In this document: one piece after another, positions 5,808 to 52,703 of the stretch
Layout: the number at the start of each line of letters is the position of its first letter
Numbering within the stretch: position 1 is the first letter of the stretch
Assembly (NCBI GenBank): GCA_015059905.1
Contig: SUZN01000005.1
Location: forward strand, 1-64,000
DNA: 64,000 nucleotides
Reading direction: 5' to 3'
Origin: Rikenellaceae bacterium
GTDB lineage: Bacteria > Bacteroidota > Bacteroidia > Bacteroidales > Rikenellaceae
Program-made: the position numbers and the translations under genes
The notes under the pieces: generated by a model
The model's input: only the letters and a program-made list of their open reading frames with translations
What the model was told of the DNA's origin: nothing
Database searches by the model: none

Positions 5808-7526
5808 ATGGCAACAATATCAAGACAAGAAAACAACAACCTCTTCGGCGCTACGGTGGGCGACAAGATACGCCTTGCCGACACGGATTTGTATGTGGAG
5901 ATTGAACGCGACCTGCGCTATTATGGTGACGAGGCAGTATATGGCGGTGGAAAAACCCTGCGTGACGGTATGGGTCAGGCAAACACCATCACATCGAAGG
6001 CGGGAGCGCTCGATTTGGTCATTACAAACGTCACCATCATCGACCCTCTGATGGGTGTGGTGAAAGCTGATGTGGGCATCAAGGATGGACGCATAGCGGG
6101 CATAGGCAAGGCGGGCAACCCCAATACTATGGATGGCGTATGTCCCGAACTTGTGACAAGTGCCGCGACAGATGCCATCTCGGGTGAACATCTTATACTT
6201 ACGGCAGCAGCCATAGACGGACACGTTCACTTCATCTCGCCACAGCAGGCAGAGGCGGCATTGAGCAATGGTGTGACAACCCTCTTTGGCGGTGGCATAG
6301 GTCCAACCGATGGCTCAAACGGCACAACCATCACCTCGGGCGTGTGGAACATCGAGCAGATGCTCAAGGCGGCGGAGACGATGCCCGTAAACGTAGGATT
6401 CCTGGGCAAGGGTAACTGCTCGGCGGCGCAACCCATAGAGGAGCAGGTTGAGGCAGGTGCGTGCGGACTGAAGATACACGAGGACTGGGGCTCTACGCCG
6501 CAGGCGATACGTTGCGCGCTGGATGTGGCGGAGCGTTATGATGTGCAGGTGGCAATCCACACCGACACACTCAACGAGAGTGGATATGTGGAGGATACCA
6601 TCGCCGCCATTGACGGGCGCACCATCCACACCTACCACACCGAGGGTGCTGGCGGAGGTCACGCACCCGATTTGCTGAAGGTGGCGAGTATGCCTTTCGT
6701 TCTGCCCTCATCGACCAACCCTACGCTGCCATTTGGCATAAACTCGCAAGCTGAATTGTTCGATATGATTATGGTGTGCCACAACCTGAACCCTGGCATA
6801 CCCTCCGACGTAGCCTTTGCCGAGAGCCGTGTACGCCCAGGCACGCAGGCGGCGGAGAATGTGTTGCACGATTTGGGCGTGCTGTCGATGATTTCATCCG
6901 ACTCGCAGGCTATGGGACGCGTGGGAGAGTCATTTATGCGCGCGGTGCAGATGGCATCATATATGAAAAACGCCTGCGGCAGACTGCACGAGGATAGCGC
7001 AGAGAATGATAACTTCCGCGTATTGCGCTATCTGGCGAAGATAACCATCAACCCTGCCATCACGTTTGGCATCTCGGACACGCTCGGCTCGGTGAGCAAG
7101 GGCAAGATTGCCGACCTGGTGCTGTGGGAGCCTCAATTCTTCGGGGCAAAGCCGAAGATGGTACTCAAGGCGGGCATCATCAGCTGGGCGAATATGGGCG
7201 ACCCCAACGCCTCGCTTCCAACACCGCAACCCTGCTACTATCGTCCTATGTTCGGAGCGTATGGCAAGGTGTTGCGCGAGAGTTGTATCAGCTTCGTGTC
7301 GCAGGCCGCTTGCGAAAGCGATATAGCACGCCGACTGCATCTGCATCATCAGGTGGTGCCCGTGCGCCGCACACGCCAGATAAACAAGCAGGATATGGTG
7401 CTCAACGGAGCTATGCCGCAGATAGATGTAAACCCCGAGACATTCGAGGTGGCGGTGAACAAGACCAAAGTATATGTAGAGCCCGCCAAAAGTGTAGCGC
7501 TGGGGCAGCTCTATTGGTTTAGCTAA
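5808..7526 (+). CDS. ureC: Urease subunit alpha
   Basis: [20 protein letters not shown] (Lys ligand), [23 protein letters not shown] motifs. Confidence 0.98.
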
Positions 7527-30258: not shown

Positions 30259-30458
30259 AGAGGAAAGAGGAAAGAGATTGCCACGTCGGGCTGTACCCTC
30301 CTCGCAATGACGTTATTACGGTCGCACATCCCCCTGGAGCGTAGCGACCAAAGTCCCCCTTTACAGAAAGGGGGATTTAGGGGGATAGGTAACATTTGCT
30401 TGAATGGCGCAAGCCATAGGTTGTGACTACGCCAATAAAATCCGTAACAGTCACACAC
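30259..30458 (+). repeat. Interspersed repeat copy A
   Basis: gattgccacgtcgggctg...cctcctcgcaatgacg + cccctggagcgtagcgaccaaagtccccctttacagaaagggggatttagggggataggtaacatttgc. Confidence 0.9.
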
Positions 30459-30550: not shown

Positions 30551-30751
30551 AAGAGGAAAGAGGAAAGAGATTGCCACGTCGGGCTGTGCCCTCCTCGCAA
30601 TGACGTTATTACGGTCGCACATCCCCCTGGAGCGTAGCGACCAAAGTCCCCCTTTACAGAAAGGGGGATTTAGGGGGATAGGTAACATTTGCTTTAATGG
30701 CGAATGCCATAGGCTGTGACTACGCTCTTAAAATCCGTAACGGTCACACAC
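30551..30751 (+). repeat. Interspersed repeat copy B (near-identical to copy A)
   Basis: Same ~200-bp unit as 30259-30458. Confidence 0.9.
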
Positions 30752-30835
30752 TTACACCATCTAAACAAATGAAACTAACAAAAGATAAGAGATTGCCACG
30801 TCGCTAACGCTCCTCGCAATGACAGACTTATTTTT

Positions 30836-40560: not shown

Positions 40561-40600
40561 TCGTCATTGCGAGGAGGACTTTAGTCCGACGTGGCAATCT
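40561..40600 (-). repeat. Short palindromic interspersed repeat (GTCATTGCGAG...GGCAATC)
   Basis: cgtcattgcgaggaggactttagtccgacgtggcaatctc. Confidence 0.75.
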
Positions 40601-41823: not shown

Positions 41824-44040
41824 TTATTTCAGGCGGTTGATTGTTTGAGTTATCTCCTTTGCAAGTGCCTCGTCTGATGCGCTCACGCCCTGCAAGCCCT
41901 CCAGAATCTCCGACTTGCGGCAAGAGAGGTTGAACCAACCAAGTGCCTCGGCAGCAGCCACACGCACCTCCAAAGGCTCATTCTCGTCAGCTACAAGTGC
42001 CACCATCTGTGGCACGGTGTCGTGATACTGAAGGTTGCGGAAGCCACGAATTGCACTCACGCGAGCAGCAGGTTTTGATTCCTTATCCAGCGCACCCTCA
42101 ACATCCTGCGCGCGCAGATACTGCATACGACCAATACGCTTGCGGAAAGCATCGAAATACTCCTTCACAGGATAGCCCGACTTCGCAATCTCCGCCTCCA
42201 GAGCCTTCTCCACAGCCGCCTCGGGCATAACCTGCCACAAAGAGTTGAGCGTAAAGACTACGCGCTGGCTCTCGGGACGGTGGATAACCGCATCGGCGCA
42301 CTCATCCAACAGCTCCTCGCTACCAATCATCGCGGCATAGCGCGCTGCATTACGGCGCACAACCTCATAGCTGTCGAACATAGCCTCACCAACGGCTGTT
42401 ACGAACTCCTGACACTCGCCACCAAAGCGAGAGAGCAGCTTCAGGCACTCCATACGCGTTGTAGCGTAAGAGCAAGAGCGATACTTCGCAAGCAACTCCT
42501 CTGCCGTGAGCTTGCCGCCATCAGCCAGCTGACGCAACGCAAGGCTCTGAACATCAGCATTTGGAGCATCCATCAGCTCCTGCCAATACTGCGCGTTCTT
42601 GGCATCCAGCTTGCCGCCCTTAAGGCGCATAGTGACCATCTCCTGACGAAGATTGTTGGCATCATTTGGCACAAAGTGGAAGGCTGGGTCGCCAATGATG
42701 TGACCCTCAAGCGTAGCAATCATACGGTTGTACTGACCCACACGCACGCCATTTGACAGCAGACCGAGCATCTCGTAGGTCCATCTATCCTGCAACACAT
42801 TAACGGTGTTACCCTGCGCCACAACGGTGCGACCACGACCGAAGATGTAGCTACCTGCCACATATCCCTTCTGGTGGAATGAGCCGTTATAGCAAGCGTT
42901 GAAGATAACAAAGCGAGGCATTGGGCGCAGCTCGTTAATCTCCTCCAGCACAAGGTCGTCGATATTCTTCTCCTGCTTCTTTGTTGGGTTGTCGAACTCC
43001 TCGAAGAACTTATCTGTCAGGCGGTACTTCTCCTTGAAATACTCCTTCGTACCTGCTACGTCGCCACCCTCCTTGCGCTGCTCACGTCGAAGGTAGTAAT
43101 ATACCTCATCGCGCAGTGCCTCGGCACGTCGGTCGAAGCCTTCGATTGGCTCCTCGCCATCGAGGTGCTGCTTGTCGGGCGAGCCGTGCTCATTGAAAAT
43201 CATCACATCCACCTCACGACGCTCAATCTGGTCGAATAACTGCTCCTTGGCATCACGCATACGGAAGTTGAGCTGTGTGAGGGCTGCAACATCGTTGCGA
43301 GCGGTGAGCTGTGGGAACATCTCGTCGATGGCGATGCGCTCGTCCATCCACGCAACCAAACAGTCGGAGTTATAGGCTGCACCAGCATAGGTCACTACGT
43401 GGTCAATCTTCTCCAGACGACGGCGCTCCTGCACCACCTTGCGCAGATAACGGCTAATCTCCTTATATTTGTCGCCACCCATCTGCTCGGGGTAGTGGAT
43501 ACGACCCGAATAGAATGTAGGATTGAGGTTCTGTGCAGACTCCTCCGAAAGACGATAGTAGAAACGCAAAGGGTTGATAGAGTCGCGCTTGATAAACTCA
43601 AACTCAAGGTTCAGGTCATCGTAGAAACGGTCCGATGTAACGGCTGTCTCCTCGATAGGGAAGCGCTCCTCGTTCATCTTGAAGGCGGTGGTCATATGCT
43701 GCGCATTCTGCACGCTCACATAAGGCACGTCGCCAATGAATACAACACCCTCCAAAGGCATCTTCTTGAGGTTTTTCTTATGCAGCTTCTTCAGCTCGGC
43801 ACGCACCTCGTCGGGTGATGACCAAGCGTTAGAGATGATATATACAGCGAGCTGGTCACGCTCCAGCGCTGCACGGTAGGCATTAACCTCCAGACGGCAC
43901 TTTGAATAGGTCTCGCTGTCGATGACAATAGCAAACGAGGTTGGCTGCTTGTGCGTAGGTTGCTCGATGACAACCTTCGCTGCTGCCGAAGCAAAGAGAG
44001 TCGCAACAGAGAGAGCGACAGTAAACAATATCTTTCTCAT
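41824..44040 (-). CDS. Secreted caspase-like (clan CD / C25-like) protein with C-terminal HEAT-like repeats
   Basis: Signal MRKILFTVALSVATLFASAAA; His motif VDVMIFNEHGSPD; Cys motif PRFVIFNACYNGSFHQKGYVAGSYIF; alpha-repeat C-terminus. Confidence 0.75.
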   Translation of the reverse strand: MRKILFTVALSVATLFASAAAKVVIEQPTHKQPTSFAIVIDSETYSKCRLEVNAYRAALERDQLAVYIISNAWSSPDEVRAELKKLHKKNLKKMPLEGVVFIGDVPYVSVQNAQHMTTAFKMNEERFPIEETAVTSDRFYDDLNLEFEFIKRDSINPLRFYYRLSEESAQNLNPTFYSGRIHYPEQMGGDKYKEISRYLRKVVQERRRLEKIDHVVTYAGAAYNSDCLVAWMDERIAIDEMFPQLTARNDVAALTQLNFRMRDAKEQLFDQIERREVDVMIFNEHGSPDKQHLDGEEPIEGFDRRAEALRDEVYYYLRREQRKEGGDVAGTKEYFKEKYRLTDKFFEEFDNPTKKQEKNIDDLVLEEINELRPMPRFVIFNACYNGSFHQKGYVAGSYIFGRGRTVVAQGNTVNVLQDRWTYEMLGLLSNGVRVGQYNRMIATLEGHIIGDPAFHFVPNDANNLRQEMVTMRLKGGKLDAKNAQYWQELMDAPNADVQSLALRQLADGGKLTAEELLAKYRSCSYATTRMECLKLLSRFGGECQEFVTAVGEAMFDSYEVVRRNAARYAAMIGSEELLDECADAVIHRPESQRVVFTLNSLWQVMPEAAVEKALEAEIAKSGYPVKEYFDAFRKRIGRMQYLRAQDVEGALDKESKPAARVSAIRGFRNLQYHDTVPQMVALVADENEPLEVRVAAAEALGWFNLSCRKSEILEGLQGVSASDEALAKEITQTINRLK

Positions 44041-44046
44041 AGCCTC

Positions 44047-46236
44047 TTACTTTTTAGATGTTAAGCGCGAATAAGCGCGTGTTACTTCACGGGTAAGCTC
44101 CTCCGACATACCCCCCTTATCCAATAGCTGCTTGCAGGTGGCTGCAATCTGCTCCTTATTGACCGAGATGTTGAACCACGCCAACGCCTCCGCCATCAAT
44201 ACGCGAATCTTCTCCTCCTCCGTTTCATCGGCGAGAATCTTGCAGAAGGTGTCGGTGAATTGGTGGTAAGGGTGGTTCTTCAAGGCTGCGATGTAGAATG
44301 GTCGCCAGCGTTTATCCTCACGGTCGGTGAAGTTACGCAACGCCGATGGCTCGCCGTTGTCGGCTGTGCGGGTATCTACATAACGCATAATCTCGGTCTT
44401 ATATCGCTCGGCATTGTGGAACGTAGCCTTCTCGAAGCGCTTGTCGATAGCAGCAATAACCTTGTCGCGGTCGAACGAAGCTAGAGCGAACGTAGTCTGG
44501 AACATCACACGAATAGAGTTGTTATCCTTGATGTAAGACTCTATCAGGAGTGGAATGAAATCCTCGTCACCCACCTGACCCATACGGGTCACAGCGATAC
44601 GGCGGATGAACTCATACTCATCGCTCCACGCCTTCATCAATATCTGCTTGTAATTCGCATCATCCAGGCGCTCCGACAGACGCATCGCTGTGCCACGCAC
44701 AACGGCATAAGGCGACTGCATATACTTCTGCAACAGGACATCCGACACGCCCTCATAGTCAAGTTCCAGCAGACGAGTCATCGCCAGGCACTGTATGTCG
44801 GGAATCTCGCTTGAGAGCTGCTCAACCCAATATTTTGGGTCGTTGTTCAGAACGTTGCGGTTGATGTCATACTTGGCAGCGTCCTTATAGTAGAACGCCA
44901 GCGTAGGGTCACCGTGAATATGCGACTCAAGGATATTGACGTGCTTTGCCCACACACCTACGCGTGCGCCATAGCCCAACAGACCCATCAAATCGTAAGA
45001 GGTCTTATCCTGCAACACATTCACACTGTTTGCCCAGCCGATAACGGTCTTGCCCTCCGCGAAGATGAACTTACCAGCGATATAGTCGCTGTTGCGGAAG
45101 TCGCCGTTGAAGCAGGCATCGAAGAATATCATTCGGGCATTAGGGCGAATATCGTTAATCTCCTCAAGGATGATACCTGTCTTGAGGTCAAGCACCGAGT
45201 CAAGCTCAATCATCGCCTGCTCGTTGGCGTTGGTGTGCCACTTCGTTGAGTCCAGACCCCACTTATCCGCCATCTTGTTTGCCGAGGCGGGGCTGCGGCG
45301 GTACTGACCACGCAAACGGAACTCCATCTGCTCGATATGCTCCTCAACAGAGCTTGTCTGTGGGTCGCCCGACACATACATACGGAAGTAGTCACCGTGC
45401 TGGTGCCAAATCATAAAGTCGAGGTCGTCACGACGCAACTCGCGGATGCAGTCATACTTCATATATGGGTCCATCGTGTAGCGTGTGAAGCGGGCGTTGT
45501 TATTGTGCTTGAAGCGGTCACCAAACTGCTCATTAACCACCTGCTGCTCACTGCGCCATGCTACCAGAGAGTTTGAGTGCGAGCCGTGACCTGTATAAGA
45601 GAGGAACTTGTCAAACTCATTCTTTGACTTATGCTCCGCAACAGCCTTCTTCAAGTATGCCGATACCTGCTTATATGGGTCGCCATTGCTTGCCTGTGGC
45701 TTGATACGAGCCGAGTAGATGTCGCACTCGATATACTGTGGCGATGTGGGACTCATAGCGAAGAAGTGCATCAAACCCTGCGCGGGGTGCTCCTCCAAAC
45801 GCTCAAAGACCAAATCGAAATCATCGTAGTAGCGGTCAGATGGTACGGTACACTCCTCGATAGGGTGCTTGCGCTCGTCCATCTTGAAGGCTGTGGTGAG
45901 GTGCTGCGCGCGCAACACCATAGGGATTGGAATCTCGCCAACAAAGACACATCCCTCAATCTTGTACTCCTTGTGCAACGAGAGAATCTCCTCGCGCACC
46001 TGCTCAGGCGTAGCCCATTTATCAGCCACAATAAGGGTAGGCAAGCCCTCACTCTCCAGCGTCTGCTTGTAAAGCATCAGCTCTGCTCGGCAGGCAGAGA
46101 AGGTGGCCTCATCGACAATAACGGCAAATGACGAGTAGCTCTCCACAGAGGGCTTCTCAACCTGCTTTGCCTGCGTCGCAGAGAGTGCAGTGAAGCAAAG
46201 TATTGCCGCCAGACTAAAAATTTTATTCAGTTTCAT
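44047..46236 (-). CDS. Secreted caspase-like (clan CD / C25-like) protein with HEAT-like repeats, paralog
   Basis: Signal MKLNKIFSLAAILCFTALSATQA; His motif LDFMIWHQHGDYF; Cys motif RMIFFDACFNGDFRNSDYIAGKFIFAEGKTV. Confidence 0.75.
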   Translation of the reverse strand: MKLNKIFSLAAILCFTALSATQAKQVEKPSVESYSSFAVIVDEATFSACRAELMLYKQTLESEGLPTLIVADKWATPEQVREEILSLHKEYKIEGCVFVGEIPIPMVLRAQHLTTAFKMDERKHPIEECTVPSDRYYDDFDLVFERLEEHPAQGLMHFFAMSPTSPQYIECDIYSARIKPQASNGDPYKQVSAYLKKAVAEHKSKNEFDKFLSYTGHGSHSNSLVAWRSEQQVVNEQFGDRFKHNNNARFTRYTMDPYMKYDCIRELRRDDLDFMIWHQHGDYFRMYVSGDPQTSSVEEHIEQMEFRLRGQYRRSPASANKMADKWGLDSTKWHTNANEQAMIELDSVLDLKTGIILEEINDIRPNARMIFFDACFNGDFRNSDYIAGKFIFAEGKTVIGWANSVNVLQDKTSYDLMGLLGYGARVGVWAKHVNILESHIHGDPTLAFYYKDAAKYDINRNVLNNDPKYWVEQLSSEIPDIQCLAMTRLLELDYEGVSDVLLQKYMQSPYAVVRGTAMRLSERLDDANYKQILMKAWSDEYEFIRRIAVTRMGQVGDEDFIPLLIESYIKDNNSIRVMFQTTFALASFDRDKVIAAIDKRFEKATFHNAERYKTEIMRYVDTRTADNGEPSALRNFTDREDKRWRPFYIAALKNHPYHQFTDTFCKILADETEEEKIRVLMAEALAWFNISVNKEQIAATCKQLLDKGGMSEELTREVTRAYSRLTSKK

Positions 46237-46259
46237 TGTTAAAATATTTTACGCTCAAA

Positions 46260-46287
46260 AGCAACCCTTCCTGCTCGAAGGGTTGCT
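46260..46287 (-). terminator. Hairpin between barrel-protein gene and protease genes (attenuator-like)
   Basis: AGCAACCCTTC-CTGCTC-GAAGGGTTGCT followed on the minus strand by TTTT. Confidence 0.6.
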
Positions 46288-46308
46288 CTTAAATCTTACA
46301 TCGTATGC

Positions 46309-47889
46309 TTAAAACGTCAGACCAGCCTTAACCATCAGCCAAGTGCGAGAGCCAAAAGGATAAGCCGCAGGGCAAGAGGTCGCCTTCGAGTGGTCGAGCG
46401 TAGCCTTCACAAAGAGTGAAGAGTTCTCGCCCACAACACCCTGACGCGTATAGCTCAACTCGCCACCCAGCGTGTAAGCGTCGTTGATAAGGTAGTTGAA
46501 GTCACGAAGAACCATATCGGTGTAAATCTTCGAATCGGCGTTGATACCTGTGTAGGTGTGTGAGCCGTCGAGGTTGCTCTTCAAACCACCGTTCACGCCC
46601 ACCAGAATCATATTCTCGCCAAACGTAAAGTTCTTCTTCAGCGAGAGCTTGAAGCTCAGGTTCTCAACCGTCTGCTCGCTCAATGGCAAGTAGTAGATAT
46701 CCTCCAGCTTCTCGTAATTGACATCTGCGCCAGCCAACCAGCTGTAAGCGTTGCTGCCGCCGATATTCATATAGTCCAGGTCGAGGTTAATCTGCTCGGT
46801 AGAGAAGTTCGAGCGCACGCTCTTTGACATAACAATCCACTCCGACACCTCGTGCGAAGAGTCCCACACCTGCACATACTCGATACCGTCAATGCTGCGG
46901 TTGAAGTACTGCAGCTTGGCAAAGAGTGAGTTGTCGTCATTCATTGCCCACTTCAGATTAGCCGAAGCATCCCACACATTCTCCTTCGTTGTGCCGATGA
47001 TTTTAGGCTGCGTGTAGTTGTTGTTCACATCCTCAACCGTAAAGGCATAGTTCGCCTCAACGAGCAGAGTCAGAGCGTCGCCGCTGAACGAATACTGCAA
47101 GCCGCCACCCAGCGAGTTGGCGTTATAGTCGCGCAAGCCAGAGAGTGTGCCGCTACCAATCTCGCCCGCCTTGAAGAAGCCAGGAGCAACAACCTCCCAC
47201 ACAGGCTGTGAGGTGAGTGAGATAGAGTTTGATGCGGTACCATCCTCACGACGTGAGAAGTACTCGAAGTTGGCACCCACAGCGTGTTTGCCCGCCTTGA
47301 ACACAACAGAAGGAGTCACCACGAACTTCGACATCTGCACATTTGGACGTGGGTCCATCTGCTTTGCGCCCTGCGCGTTCTCGTAATCAAGACCCAGACC
47401 TACAATCCAATGGTCGCCCATCACGGGTGTAGCGCCCTTCATACCGAGCTTATAGCTCTGGTGAATCCAGTTGCTCAGGTTCTGGTCGGCGATGTAGAAT
47501 GGTGTACCACGCAGAGGGTCGATAAGCGATGCGTTGAACGCCGCATCACGCACCTTCTCGCGCGAGTAGTCGAAATAACCCCACAAGAACATACCCTTCA
47601 GGTTATCCATCACGCCACCACCATCGGTCGAGAAGCCGTAGCCGTTGTTATTCTCGCCAAGCTGTGTGCGCTTGAAGTCACCCTCGGTAGAGTTGTAGTT
47701 GATGCCGAGCTGGCTGTAACGACCCATCTGGTCGAGCTGCACACCAGCGGCATTGTTGCTATTTGAGAACCAGAGGCTCTCCATCTTTTTACGCTCGATG
47801 CTCTGCAATGAGCTTGCCTGCTGTGCTACGGCTGAAGTGACGGTAGCAGCAAGAACAAGAGCGGTCAATGTATATTTAATATTTCTCAT
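46309..47889 (-). CDS. Outer-membrane beta-barrel protein (DUF6850-like)
   Basis: Signal MRNIKYTLTALVLAATVTSAVAQQ; alternating beta pattern; C-terminal ...SRTWLMVKAGLTF (terminal Phe). Confidence 0.7.
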   Translation of the reverse strand: MRNIKYTLTALVLAATVTSAVAQQASSLQSIERKKMESLWFSNSNNAAGVQLDQMGRYSQLGINYNSTEGDFKRTQLGENNNGYGFSTDGGGVMDNLKGMFLWGYFDYSREKVRDAAFNASLIDPLRGTPFYIADQNLSNWIHQSYKLGMKGATPVMGDHWIVGLGLDYENAQGAKQMDPRPNVQMSKFVVTPSVVFKAGKHAVGANFEYFSRREDGTASNSISLTSQPVWEVVAPGFFKAGEIGSGTLSGLRDYNANSLGGGLQYSFSGDALTLLVEANYAFTVEDVNNNYTQPKIIGTTKENVWDASANLKWAMNDDNSLFAKLQYFNRSIDGIEYVQVWDSSHEVSEWIVMSKSVRSNFSTEQINLDLDYMNIGGSNAYSWLAGADVNYEKLEDIYYLPLSEQTVENLSFKLSLKKNFTFGENMILVGVNGGLKSNLDGSHTYTGINADSKIYTDMVLRDFNYLINDAYTLGGELSYTRQGVVGENSSLFVKATLDHSKATSCPAAYPFGSRTWLMVKAGLTF

Positions 47890-47914
47890 TTTGCAATTCA
47901 GTTTTCAGGTTAAA

Positions 47915-49219
47915 CTACTCTGTTCTTGGACCGCCCCACGCAGGTTGCTTCACATTATGGCGGCGAATCATAGGAGCATCACACACCTCGAAATCGACTG
48001 AAGAGTTGTTGGTATCCTGGAAGATTGGAGTGCCATCCTCGCGGTAGCTGTCAATCTTACGCGATACGCTCTTGCCGTTGTAATATCCATCAACTGTTGT
48101 TGCACCAGAGTCCAGAATACCTGGCACACGCTTCATATTCATATCAGCCGATGTTGGGATACACTCCACAGCGTCGTAGATGTCGGCAAGTGGAATACGA
48201 ACATACTGCTGACCGCTTGAGCCTACCTGTGCCGATGTGGTAACACCCTCCTGCCAATACTCCGAGCCGAACTCGAGGTTCTGGCGTGGCTGATAGAGAG
48301 CCATCGCCGAGCCATCAACCGATGTAAGCCACTGCATAGTCATAATCCATCCTGACCAGAATACATAAGGAAGGTCGGGCACCTCGGGATTTACACGGTC
48401 GTGGTTACCTGCCCAGCACTCCCAATCGGCGTGAGAGGTATCTACCAGACCGAAGCCCGCCCAAGTCTCAATCTTGGTGTGGTCGGCAGCCTCCTGCGCC
48501 AACACTACTGACTCGCCAGGAGCCAAAGGATAGTCGTCACCATCGCCCTGAATCTGCCACAAGGTAACGGCGTGAGCATACTTCAGCTCGCCCGTCTTGG
48601 GGTCATAATCCTCGGCTGGCCACTCTGGCAGCGACGTTGTCGCATACTCTGGTACAAGGTGAGCCAGACAGAAGTGGTCGAGATAAACCACCTCGTCACC
48701 GTTGTTGTAAATCTCATAGAACTGGTCACGGAAGTAACCGCCCTCCGAGCCCGCGTAGTACATCTCGCGGATACAGAGTGGAGAGTCCATCACAGGGTTA
48801 ATCGAGATGGTGTTCTCTTTGGTGATTGCGGTCACATCCTTTGTAAGAGCTACGTTCTGCGCCAAACCGTTTACGATATACTTACGGTGGCTGTGCTCCT
48901 GCTTCTTATCCGTTGAAGCCATAACGTTGTAGATACCAGGGATAAGTTCTGCCTTGGCTACGCCCTCGGCATCAACCGACACAACGGTCTCAAGACCCTC
49001 GGCGAAGTTGTTGAACGTAACCTTGATATTCTTATACCAATCTGCTGGCGCCTCTGCCACGTTACCGTCGGCTGCGGTAAAATCCTTGATATCAACCTTG
49101 TATGCTACCTCGATAAGCTCAACCTTCTCGGTATCGCGTGCATCGTTCATCATCTCGGCGCACGAGAATGAGCTGATGGCTACAAGGAGCATTACGATGT
49201 TAAAAATATATCTTTTCAT
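47915..49219 (-). CDS. DUF4876-like surface lipoprotein
   Basis: MKRYIFNIVMLLVAISSFSCAEM lipobox; CIREMYYAGSEGGYFRDQFYEIYNNGDEVVYLDHFCLAHL. Confidence 0.78.
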   Translation of the reverse strand: MKRYIFNIVMLLVAISSFSCAEMMNDARDTEKVELIEVAYKVDIKDFTAADGNVAEAPADWYKNIKVTFNNFAEGLETVVSVDAEGVAKAELIPGIYNVMASTDKKQEHSHRKYIVNGLAQNVALTKDVTAITKENTISINPVMDSPLCIREMYYAGSEGGYFRDQFYEIYNNGDEVVYLDHFCLAHLVPEYATTSLPEWPAEDYDPKTGELKYAHAVTLWQIQGDGDDYPLAPGESVVLAQEAADHTKIETWAGFGLVDTSHADWECWAGNHDRVNPEVPDLPYVFWSGWIMTMQWLTSVDGSAMALYQPRQNLEFGSEYWQEGVTTSAQVGSSGQQYVRIPLADIYDAVECIPTSADMNMKRVPGILDSGATTVDGYYNGKSVSRKIDSYREDGTPIFQDTNNSSVDFEVCDAPMIRRHNVKQPAWGGPRTE

Positions 49220-49235
49220 ATCTCGAAAGTTTTAA

Positions 49236-52049
49236 CTATTTAATTGTTGCATTGAGCGACAGACCAAAGAAGAAGGCGCGGTCGTTACGACGACGGAACG
49301 AGCCTGGAGTCTTGGTGCTCTCCCACAATGGAGTGCTACGGAATGCGTTGTTGGCGTAGAACGAGATACGCAGGAAGTCCTTAATCTCCTTCGTCACGTT
49401 CACATTCATACACAACACAGGCGACATATAGCTATCCTTGATGTTACGACGTACATCGAGGTCTGGTCTTACGTCGAGCTTCTTGAACTCGTCCTGCGAG
49501 AGCATACTCTCGTTGAAGTCGTAGAGCTTGCCATCGTTTACAGATATATAGTGTGTAGGAATCTCGTCGTTCTCATAGAGCATCCACGAGCCCTCGCGCC
49601 AGATGACGTTGGCAGTAGCCGAGATTACGAAACCGATGCTTGGGATGTTATGCACAGCCTTGAGGTTGGTAGAGAGGTTTTCGTAGAATGAGCTCTTGCG
49701 CGCATTGAACACACCCATATGGTTGTAGTAGTTACCCGAGTTGGCGCGGTCGAATGAAAGACCGTTGTTCCAGCTCTCGGTGCGTGACCATACACCATCG
49801 AGGATGAAACGAGTGCGGATAGCGTCGATACGACCGAAGTCGATAGATGCCTCGATACCACGTGTCTCGTAAGATGAGTTGTTGGTTGGTGTAGCGTAAG
49901 AAAGCAGCACCTTGCGGCGTGAAGCCTCCTTCAAAGCTGGCATTGAGCCATCCTCGGGATAGAGAGCCTCGTAAGTGACCATATCAACGCTCTGGAAGCT
50001 GTTTACCGTTGTGCTGAACATATAGCCGTTGTCGCTGCTATCCTTGAAAGCGGTGATAGCACCTGTAACCTGACCAATCTTGAAATCAACGCCCACCTCA
50101 TACTTCTGGGTTGTCGCCATCTCAAGCTCATCGTTTGTGGTGTCGAAGGCGTGAGTTGTCACAACCTGGAACTTCTGCTTCTCTGATGCAACCGTAGATT
50201 GTGAGTTGTTGAAGTTCAGAAGGTCGAAATATGCCTCCTGTGGATTGAGCATCTCAAGCGTTGGGGTTTTGGCTGTGATACCGTAACCACCACGAATAGA
50301 GAGGTGCTCGGGGATGATGTCAAACGAGAGGTTTACACGAGGTGCAACCACATCGTCGAAGCCGAAGATGTTGTCATAACGCACACCCGCAACAATATTG
50401 AGGTTGCGGCGACCCATTGCCCAATTGAATGACTCCTCGGCGAACAAGCCCAGAGTGTTCATAAATGGGATGTCGTCGTAAGAACGCTCACGCTGTGTAG
50501 AGAGGTTGTCAGAGGCAGTACGCAGAGGTGTGCCACCGAAAATCTTACCCTCGCCCACGTTACCCTCGTTACGGAAATCGGCACCCACCTTGATAAAGTG
50601 AGATGTTCTGCCCGCCGTACCAGCGAAGTTAGCGATTACCTGCGCGTAGGTGTTGAGCTCCTTACCGCGCACGCTGTAATTATACATATAGGCATTTGGT
50701 GTACGCAGTGCATACTCGCCATCGGGGTTGGTGATAACCGAGCCGTTCTCCAAAGTGAACTTGCCACCTGGGGCGCTGGTTGTGATGGCGCCGTTGGTCT
50801 TTGATGTTGAGAACGAAGCCTCGGCATTGACAGCCTGGTCCTCGAAGTAGCTGTCCTTATCGGTGTAGGTGAACGAAGCTGCATACTTCAGGTTGTTGAA
50901 CCAGCCCTTGTTGAACGAGAGCGTACCCTTGGTGTTGAAACGCAAACGCTCCTCCTTCTGCAACGCATAACGGAAGTCATTCTCGTCGCCTGGTGTTGGC
51001 TTCGCCTTATCGCGATATACACCCACCGAAAGTGTAGAGTTGGTGTACCACTTGCCGATACTGTTGGTGTAACCCACCTGACCATTCACACGCTCATAGT
51101 GAGAGTAGCCCTCGGTAGGTCTGTACTGCGAGTAAGAGTAGTCGGCGCTATAGTTCAACGCACCTGCCTTGCTACCTGCTGCACCGAGCTGCACACCGTG
51201 AGTGGCAGAGAGCTGATAGAGGTTGGGGTTCATCGTCAGCTTCACGTTCAGTGGCGCACGCCCCGCCTTTGAGTTTACGATAACAGCACCCGAGGTGATG
51301 TCACCATACTCAACCGATGCGATACCACGAATTACCTCCACTGACTCGATGTTATCGGTAGAGATCTGACGCATATCAACGCCTGATGTTGGGGTAGCCA
51401 TAGCTGCCGAGCCTGGAGCGTCAGAGGCGGCAAAAGGCATCTTGCCTGCACCGAGTGACTGCAAGTTGGCGTTGTTCGACATTGGCGTACCATCCATAAT
51501 GATGGCTGTACCAAGACTCGCACCACCACGAATTGAGAAGCTCGACGCCTGGCTCAATGTAAGGGTACGGGTGTCGGGAGTAGATGCACCTGGCAACAGG
51601 CTCATCACATCGGCAAGCGACGATGACTGGATGTGGTCCATCGCCGTACGCGAGATTGTAGATGAGGTGGCAGCACCCGCCTTCGATGCGGTAGCCGTCA
51701 CAACGACATCCTCAACCTTGAAGTTGGCAGGCACAAGCTCAAACTTGAGCGAGTTATCACCCGCCTTCACTGTGATTGTCTGCTCCAGATTCTCATAACC
51801 GAGGAACGAAATCTGCATCTTGTGATTGCCTGCTGCAATCTGCTTGATTGTGAAATCTCCCTCCGAATTGGTTACCGCCTGCAACCCTGTCTCTGGGAAG
51901 TGGACAAGAGCGTAGGCTACCGCCTGCTTGGTGTCGGCAGATACTACTCTACCCACCAGCGAGGCCTTCTGCTGCGCGAATGATGGCATAGCGAACGACA
52001 GTGCCATAATCACCACAACGCAGAGCTTTGTAAAGATTTTCATACGCAA
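49236..52049 (-). CDS. TonB-dependent receptor with CarboxypepD_reg-like domain
   Basis: Signal peptide; LVGRVVSADTKQAVAYALVHFPETGLQAVTNSEGDF; plug motif SFSIRGGASLGTAIIMDGTPM...VEVIRGIASVEYGDITSGAVIVNSKAG; C-terminal FFFGLSLNATIK. Confidence 0.95.
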   Translation of the reverse strand: MRMKIFTKLCVVVIMALSFAMPSFAQQKASLVGRVVSADTKQAVAYALVHFPETGLQAVTNSEGDFTIKQIAAGNHKMQISFLGYENLEQTITVKAGDNSLKFELVPANFKVEDVVVTATASKAGAATSSTISRTAMDHIQSSSLADVMSLLPGASTPDTRTLTLSQASSFSIRGGASLGTAIIMDGTPMSNNANLQSLGAGKMPFAASDAPGSAAMATPTSGVDMRQISTDNIESVEVIRGIASVEYGDITSGAVIVNSKAGRAPLNVKLTMNPNLYQLSATHGVQLGAAGSKAGALNYSADYSYSQYRPTEGYSHYERVNGQVGYTNSIGKWYTNSTLSVGVYRDKAKPTPGDENDFRYALQKEERLRFNTKGTLSFNKGWFNNLKYAASFTYTDKDSYFEDQAVNAEASFSTSKTNGAITTSAPGGKFTLENGSVITNPDGEYALRTPNAYMYNYSVRGKELNTYAQVIANFAGTAGRTSHFIKVGADFRNEGNVGEGKIFGGTPLRTASDNLSTQRERSYDDIPFMNTLGLFAEESFNWAMGRRNLNIVAGVRYDNIFGFDDVVAPRVNLSFDIIPEHLSIRGGYGITAKTPTLEMLNPQEAYFDLLNFNNSQSTVASEKQKFQVVTTHAFDTTNDELEMATTQKYEVGVDFKIGQVTGAITAFKDSSDNGYMFSTTVNSFQSVDMVTYEALYPEDGSMPALKEASRRKVLLSYATPTNNSSYETRGIEASIDFGRIDAIRTRFILDGVWSRTESWNNGLSFDRANSGNYYNHMGVFNARKSSFYENLSTNLKAVHNIPSIGFVISATANVIWREGSWMLYENDEIPTHYISVNDGKLYDFNESMLSQDEFKKLDVRPDLDVRRNIKDSYMSPVLCMNVNVTKEIKDFLRISFYANNAFRSTPLWESTKTPGSFRRRNDRAFFFGLSLNATIK

Positions 52050-52400: not shown

Positions 52401-52582
52401 GAGATTGCCACGTCGCTAACGCTCCTCGCAATGACGCTACTGCGGAAAGCATATCCCCTGGAGCGCAGCGACCAAAGTCCCCCTTTACAGAAAGGGGGAT
52501 TTAGGGGGATAGGTAACATTTGCCCCAATGGCGAATGCCATAGGCTGTGACTACGCCAATAAAAGCCGTAACAGTCACACAC
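52401..52582 (+). repeat. Interspersed repeat copy C
   Basis: gagattgccacgtcgctaacgctcctcgcaatgac...cccctggagcgcagcgaccaaagtccccctttacagaaagggggatttagggggataggtaacatttgcc. Confidence 0.88.
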
Positions 52583-52703
52583 TTACATCCACTAAACAAA
52601 TGCAACTTACAAAAACGCAAGATTGCCACGAGCCTACGGCTCTCGCAATGACGTGTTTTTTGTGCTTTATTTGAATATGTAGCCCTAATCTTGAATTTCA
52701 GAT

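Follow-up and report, generated by a model that had tools for sequence, protein, structure and literature searches.

Five genes on the minus strand of the window, by which we mean the whole 64,000-nucleotide stretch of Rikenellaceae DNA that was analysed, constitute a real module that is conserved across Bacteroidales. They encode, in order, a TonB-dependent receptor (TBDR), a DUF4876 lipoprotein, a DUF6850 protein and two proteases, C1 and C2. We give about even odds to the reading that this operon is the counterpart of Fus in Bacteroidota, a protease-associated system for TonB-driven import.

A conserved receptor and protease module

An open reading frame (ORF) check placed the five genes on the same strand and in the tight order that had been described in an earlier note on this DNA. 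The features used in the analysis are as follows.

49236–52049, minus strand: TonB-dependent receptor with a CarboxypepD_reg-like domain, plug and barrel (Pfam PF13715, PF07715)
47915–49219, minus strand: DUF4876 lipoprotein with lipobox Cys20 (Pfam PF16215, E 2.7e-37)
46309–47889, minus strand: DUF6850 protein, predicted outer-membrane beta-barrel (Pfam PF21012, E 3.2e-96)
44047–46236, minus strand: protease C1, ortholog set p1 (HG/C dyad, AlphaFold2 model, C25 profile alignment, tree)
41824–44040, minus strand: protease C2, ortholog set p2, with the architecture of C1 (HEAT_2 E 9.4e-12, tree)
45397–45399, minus strand: predicted catalytic His280 codon of C1 (invariant in a 96-sequence alignment)
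45112–45114, minus strand: predicted catalytic Cys375 codon of C1 (invariant in the same alignment)
43186–43188, minus strand: predicted catalytic His285 codon of C2
42892–42894, minus strand: predicted catalytic Cys383 codon of C2
41768–41806, minus strand: terminator-like hairpin with a 17 bp stem and a T-rich tail, 3' of the C2 stop codon
52112–52130, minus strand: inverted repeat TTCCCCAATTTTGGGGATT upstream of the receptor gene, possible operator

The likely start codon of the receptor gene is the ATG at 52043, and the receptor holds the same position in complete relative loci. Its plug domain was recognized by Pfam (E 7.5e-14), and a sequence search of the PDB returned no solved TBDR at E<=0.001. 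Like SusC/SusD nutrient uptake pairs, the module combines a Bacteroidota TBDR with a lipoprotein partner; it differs from them in that the five-gene set contains no SusD-like gene, as the earlier note had stated, and in that the receptor was not matched by SusC models. The receptor of Bacteroides xylanisolvens XB1A (L063:3787–7100) is split into two ORFs by a frameshift or an assembly error.

The Pfam matches listed above bore out the proposed DUF4876-like lipoprotein and DUF6850-like barrel, and the adjacent TBDR, DUF4876 and DUF6850 genes identify the set as a DUF4876/DUF6850 uptake module. The DUF4876 protein is a homologue of the solved chain 4q1z_A (E 1.3e-62), and its lipobox is kept in 67 of 72 relatives. 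The C-terminal residue of the DUF6850 protein is Phe in 73/73 relatives, so the protein fits a predicted outer-membrane barrel. Neither an inner-membrane transporter nor a TonB-like gene was found within the operon.

A family-level search identified relatives of C1 in 7 of 120 genomes, the window's own genome included. Five of these seven genomes, which represent several genera, show the gene order TBDR-DUF4876-DUF6850-C1-C2-C3, complete or as far as the ORF caller could resolve it, and the DNA on either side is unrelated; C2 and C3 of one relative locus (L022) were recovered separately. A collection of bacterial and archaeal species yielded 442 stretches that encode relatives, and analyses of related loci were carried out with the best 80 of these. 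The best 80 of 442 belong to Alistipes, Bacteroides, Phocaeicola, Prevotella, Muribaculaceae, Odoribacter, Proteiniphilum and others; their genes repeatedly stand in the order TBDR-DUF4876-DUF6850-protease(s), in most cases with two to four protease paralogs. The block is followed by three proteases in 29 of these loci and by two in 21, and in 16 loci one protease precedes the TBDR and two follow the block. Loci without the full block are mostly short contigs.

In a 396-genome sample of the phylum, a full-length protease was present in six other genomes. All six had a DUF4876 gene within about 10 kb of the protease, against a base rate of 36/396 genomes with any DUF4876 gene (hypergeometric P about 3e-7). 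The reverse is untrue, as DUF4876/DUF6850 modules in the phylum are mostly without the protease. The co-occurrence check proposed in the earlier note was therefore passed both in the six genomes and in the best 80 loci: the module is conserved, and the proteases occur in company with the receptor block.

Putative C25-like proteases

C1 consists of a Sec signal, a C25-like core at about residues 30–462 and HEAT repeats at about residues 467–729; HEAT_2 was detected in the C-terminal part of both C1 (Pfam, E 2.8e-9) and C2. The two had been described as paralogs of about 730 residues, 6 bp apart, each with a His-Gly...Cys dyad and HEAT repeats, and every element of that description was correct. 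The predicted dyad is QHG/FFDACFNGDF (His280, Cys375) in C1 and EHG/FNACYNGSF (His285, Cys383) in C2. Of 208 proteins, 196 match a strict HG...C-x-NG pattern, and in the majority of the others both residues are kept in variant form. In a divergent last copy found in four relative loci, L037 (14587–16707), L038, L043 and L044, only about 38 residues separate HG from SCFNG, a distance closer to ordinary clan CD spacing.

Neither C1 nor C2 matched PF01364 (C25) at E<=1, and other clan CD Pfam models did not match them either. PF01364 fires in 86/119 other genomes of the phylum, and it had no match anywhere in the window's own genome, which is 92% complete. We performed a global hhalign comparison of the core, with the helical insertion taken out, to C25 domains that were mostly PorU-type as judged by length. 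This alignment scored 28.7 (P 2e-5), compared to maxima of 14.1 in 100 column shuffles and 7.3 in 24 unrelated families. It placed HG on HG, Cys on Cys, SDR-Y on SDDY, S-RI on GRiP and GDPT on GDPA. Local hhalign of the core to C25 was misaligned and not significant. As the global alignment with the dyad in register exceeded both the shuffles and the unrelated families, we read the protease core as C25-like and outside the Pfam C25 family, which is in keeping with the gingipain-like catalytic core suggested earlier. C1 and C2 share with peptidase family C25 (gingipains, PorU) the order of HG and Cys, their register and a terminal GDP motif. They differ from that family in having neither a Pfam C25 match nor a type IX tail, and in adding HEAT repeats and, between His and Cys, some 70 helical residues as an insertion.

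AlphaFold2 modelled C1 with a pLDDT of 93.9 and the core alone with a pLDDT of 93.4. In the C1 model one strand leads into the His, and a later core strand, beyond the helical insertion, leads into the Cys, as would be expected for a clan CD protein. A Foldseek search with the C1 core returned no gingipain or caspase in the top 50, where TM-scores were below 0.3, and in a search with the full C1 model HEAT proteins dominated the hits, with no gingipain or caspase listed. The only significant matches of the proteases in phmmer and hmmsearch comparisons to the PDB were to HEAT/alphaRep sequences. The C25/caspase assignment for which the earlier note had suggested a fold check was thus recovered by global profile alignment, and not by the Foldseek fold search or by Pfam C25.

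A FastTree tree of 83 proteins separated the protease copies by position into p1, p2, p3 and copies upstream of the TBDR ('pre'). Judged from this tree, these groups are old ortholog sets and not recent duplicates. Three of the sets follow DUF6850; the window keeps C1 (p1) and C2 (p2), and p3 is missing in the window and its closest relatives. As relatives carry from one to four copies, the pair of diverged proteases emphasized in the earlier note is not the general state of the module. Two relative loci (L098:2433, L104:7823) encode two proteases fused in one ORF of 1419–1445 residues.

C1 and C2 had been called secreted. Both have a Sec-type signal, which agrees with export from the cytoplasm, and neither has a type IX sorting tail that would take it further. 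Most relatives of the proteases also have plain Sec signals and no lipobox. Several proteases encoded upstream of the TBDR in relatives do carry a lipobox, and these may be anchored at the surface or at the inner leaflet. In a distant module a type IX tail is present on a neighbouring protein of the YCF48 type and absent from the scanned protease. Because C1 and C2 combine Sec signals with the absence of a lipobox and of a type IX tail, and because a C25/PorU gene was not detected in the 92% complete genome, a periplasmic location of the proteases appears more likely than surface exposure. The same observations speak against the surface proteolysis envisaged in the earlier note.

Probable iron link and comparison with Fus-type import

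Expression of related operons responds to iron. In the iron-stimulon table of PMC10434189, genes PG1019-22 of Porphyromonas gingivalis (DUF4876, TBDR) were up 21–214 fold in low iron, BT3625-33 of Bacteroides thetaiotaomicron were up 38–128 fold, and BT1933-39, whose listing has HEAT-repeat, DUF4876 and TBDR genes, were up a modest 3.5–7.4 fold. A P. gingivalis DUF4876 gene is also among the genes strongly reduced by hemin (PMC10470040). As homologous operons are thus turned up by iron shortage or turned down by hemin, the iron or haem role raised in the earlier note is a good guess. Gene order, annotation and the B. xylanisolvens locus suggest that BT1933-39 is probably the same module as that of the window. 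All three iron-starvation operons contain the same core families; in the tabulated data of PMC10434189 they are known from expression, and the proteases and their linkage are not analysed there. The module had been presented as undescribed, which holds for its function but not for the expression of its core operon, which that table already includes if BT1933-39 is the same module.

Modules without the protease often have other genes in its place. In eight of them (L169, L170, L171, L176, L177, L179, L181 and L183) DUF6850 is followed by a di-haem cytochrome c peroxidase, recognized as CCP_MauG with E 1e-47 to 1e-53 in the four that were scanned; these modules form a separate group that seems to be uncharacterised. 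Other protease-free modules contain a PepSY-TM protein, or an ABC transporter with DUF4857. A further group of genes in such modules encodes YCF48-type proteins that bear type IX tails, together with a NapH-like ferredoxin and M16 proteases; this group co-occurs with the protease in distant lineages as well, and M16 (FusC-type) proteases adjoin some distant modules only. No relatives of the tested accessory examples, CCP_MauG included, were found in the 80 protease loci (best of 442). Mutual exclusion of MauG and the protease gave p 0.17 in the phylum sample alone and p 3e-5 once related loci, which are phylogenetically non-independent, were added.

Proteobacterial Fus-type clusters without FusC carry cytochrome c peroxidases, which have been proposed to free iron cofactors by reduction (Grinter 2019; PMC6793856). 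It is mainly because the alternation of peroxidase and protease parallels that of the Fus clusters that a Fus-like mechanism was chosen. The module has in common with Fus ferredoxin import (FusA/FusC; YddB/PqqL; PMC6793856, PMC6071955) a TBDR gene encoded together with a dedicated exported protease, an iron link, and a cytochrome c peroxidase in protease-free modules. It differs from Fus, which was described in Proteobacteria, in that its protease is a C25-like cysteine type with HEAT repeats rather than a homologue of the M16 zinc type (FusC), and in that DUF4876 and DUF6850 are additional. Kinship of the receptor with FusA was not found by PDB sequence search at E<=0.001.

According to the Fus-like mechanism, the DUF4876 lipoprotein and the TBDR would bind a protein, a fragment or a peptide that carries iron or haem, and the TBDR, powered by TonB and helped by the DUF6850 barrel, would move this ligand across the outer membrane. 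After export through Sec, C1 and C2 would stay in the periplasm, bind the substrate through their HEAT repeats and cleave it, and the iron or haem freed in this way would then be taken up by other systems. A more specific version, which we advance tentatively and think rather doubtful, is that in gut and rumen Bacteroidales the TonB channel imports a whole iron- or haem-bearing protein of host, dietary or microbial origin, which two to four C25-like/HEAT proteases dismantle in the periplasm. If the Fus-like reading is right, Fus-type protein piracy would extend beyond Proteobacteria, would be widespread in gut and rumen Bacteroidales and would use an unrelated protease. DUF4876 and DUF6850 would gain a function, part of the Bacteroidota iron stimulon would be accounted for, and commensals would have a testable route of iron acquisition under host iron limitation.

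Gingipains are C25 proteases tied to haem acquisition, and C1 and C2 might likewise act extracellularly, with the TBDR importing the haem, iron or peptide that they free. Such surface processing would suit both the lipoprotein nature of DUF4876 and the lipoprotein-like protease copies that precede the TBDR in several relatives; however, the signals of C1, C2 and most relatives, the lack of a detectable PorU/C25 gene in the same genome and the distribution of type IX tails in the distant module all make it unlikely. Since small ligands are usual for TBDRs, the substrate might also be a peptide metallophore or another peptide natural product that is imported and then cut in the periplasm by specialised peptidases. 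The separate conservation of several peptidases (p1, p2, p3 and 'pre') is consistent with such a ligand, and the partner genes would provide the metal link, but the conserved part of the loci contains no biosynthetic or siderophore genes and Rfam found neither a riboswitch nor any further RNA element in the window's module. We consider a peptide ligand of this kind improbable.

Alternatively, the proteases could leave the ligand undigested and work on the uptake complex itself, maturing its components or anchoring them in the way that PorU, a C25 enzyme, treats type IX cargo. The mostly PorU-type C25 profile, HEAT domains that would suit scaffolding and the nearly constant company of the module around the protease are all compatible with this role. 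Most DUF4876/DUF6850/TBDR modules of the phylum are nevertheless without a protease, indicating that maturation by a protease is not generally needed, and we give this explanation little credence. The Fus-like mechanism is the one that we prefer, at the strength given at the outset.

Transcription unit and repeats around the operon

Between the inverted repeat TTCCCCAATTTTGGGGATT and the receptor start is a −7 box of the Bacteroides type, TATCTTTG. This box before the receptor and the hairpin after C2 make it probable that the five genes form a single transcription unit. The TTCCCCAATTTTGGGGATT site is unique in the genome when up to two mismatches are allowed. A related site was found in 5 of 70 other loci (L026, L043, L056, L059 and L068, at −85 to −98); these sites are loosely similar to TTCCCCAATTTTGGGGATT and weak relative to shuffles. 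A conserved upstream operator motif was not established, as it was present in 6 of 71 loci compared to 1.9 expected and the largest shuffle gave 8.

Elsewhere in the window, positions 5958–6252 matched the Rfam family 5_ureB_sRNA with 46.6 bits, slightly over the gathering score of 40 bits, which is unexpected in Bacteroidota. A palindromic repeat, CATTGCGAG..GTGGCAATC, has 55 copies in the genome and six in the window (30276–30309, 30569–30602, 30791–30821, 40565–40599, 52403–52433 and 52621–52650), where none is expected by chance. Two of these copies are situated just upstream of the operon.
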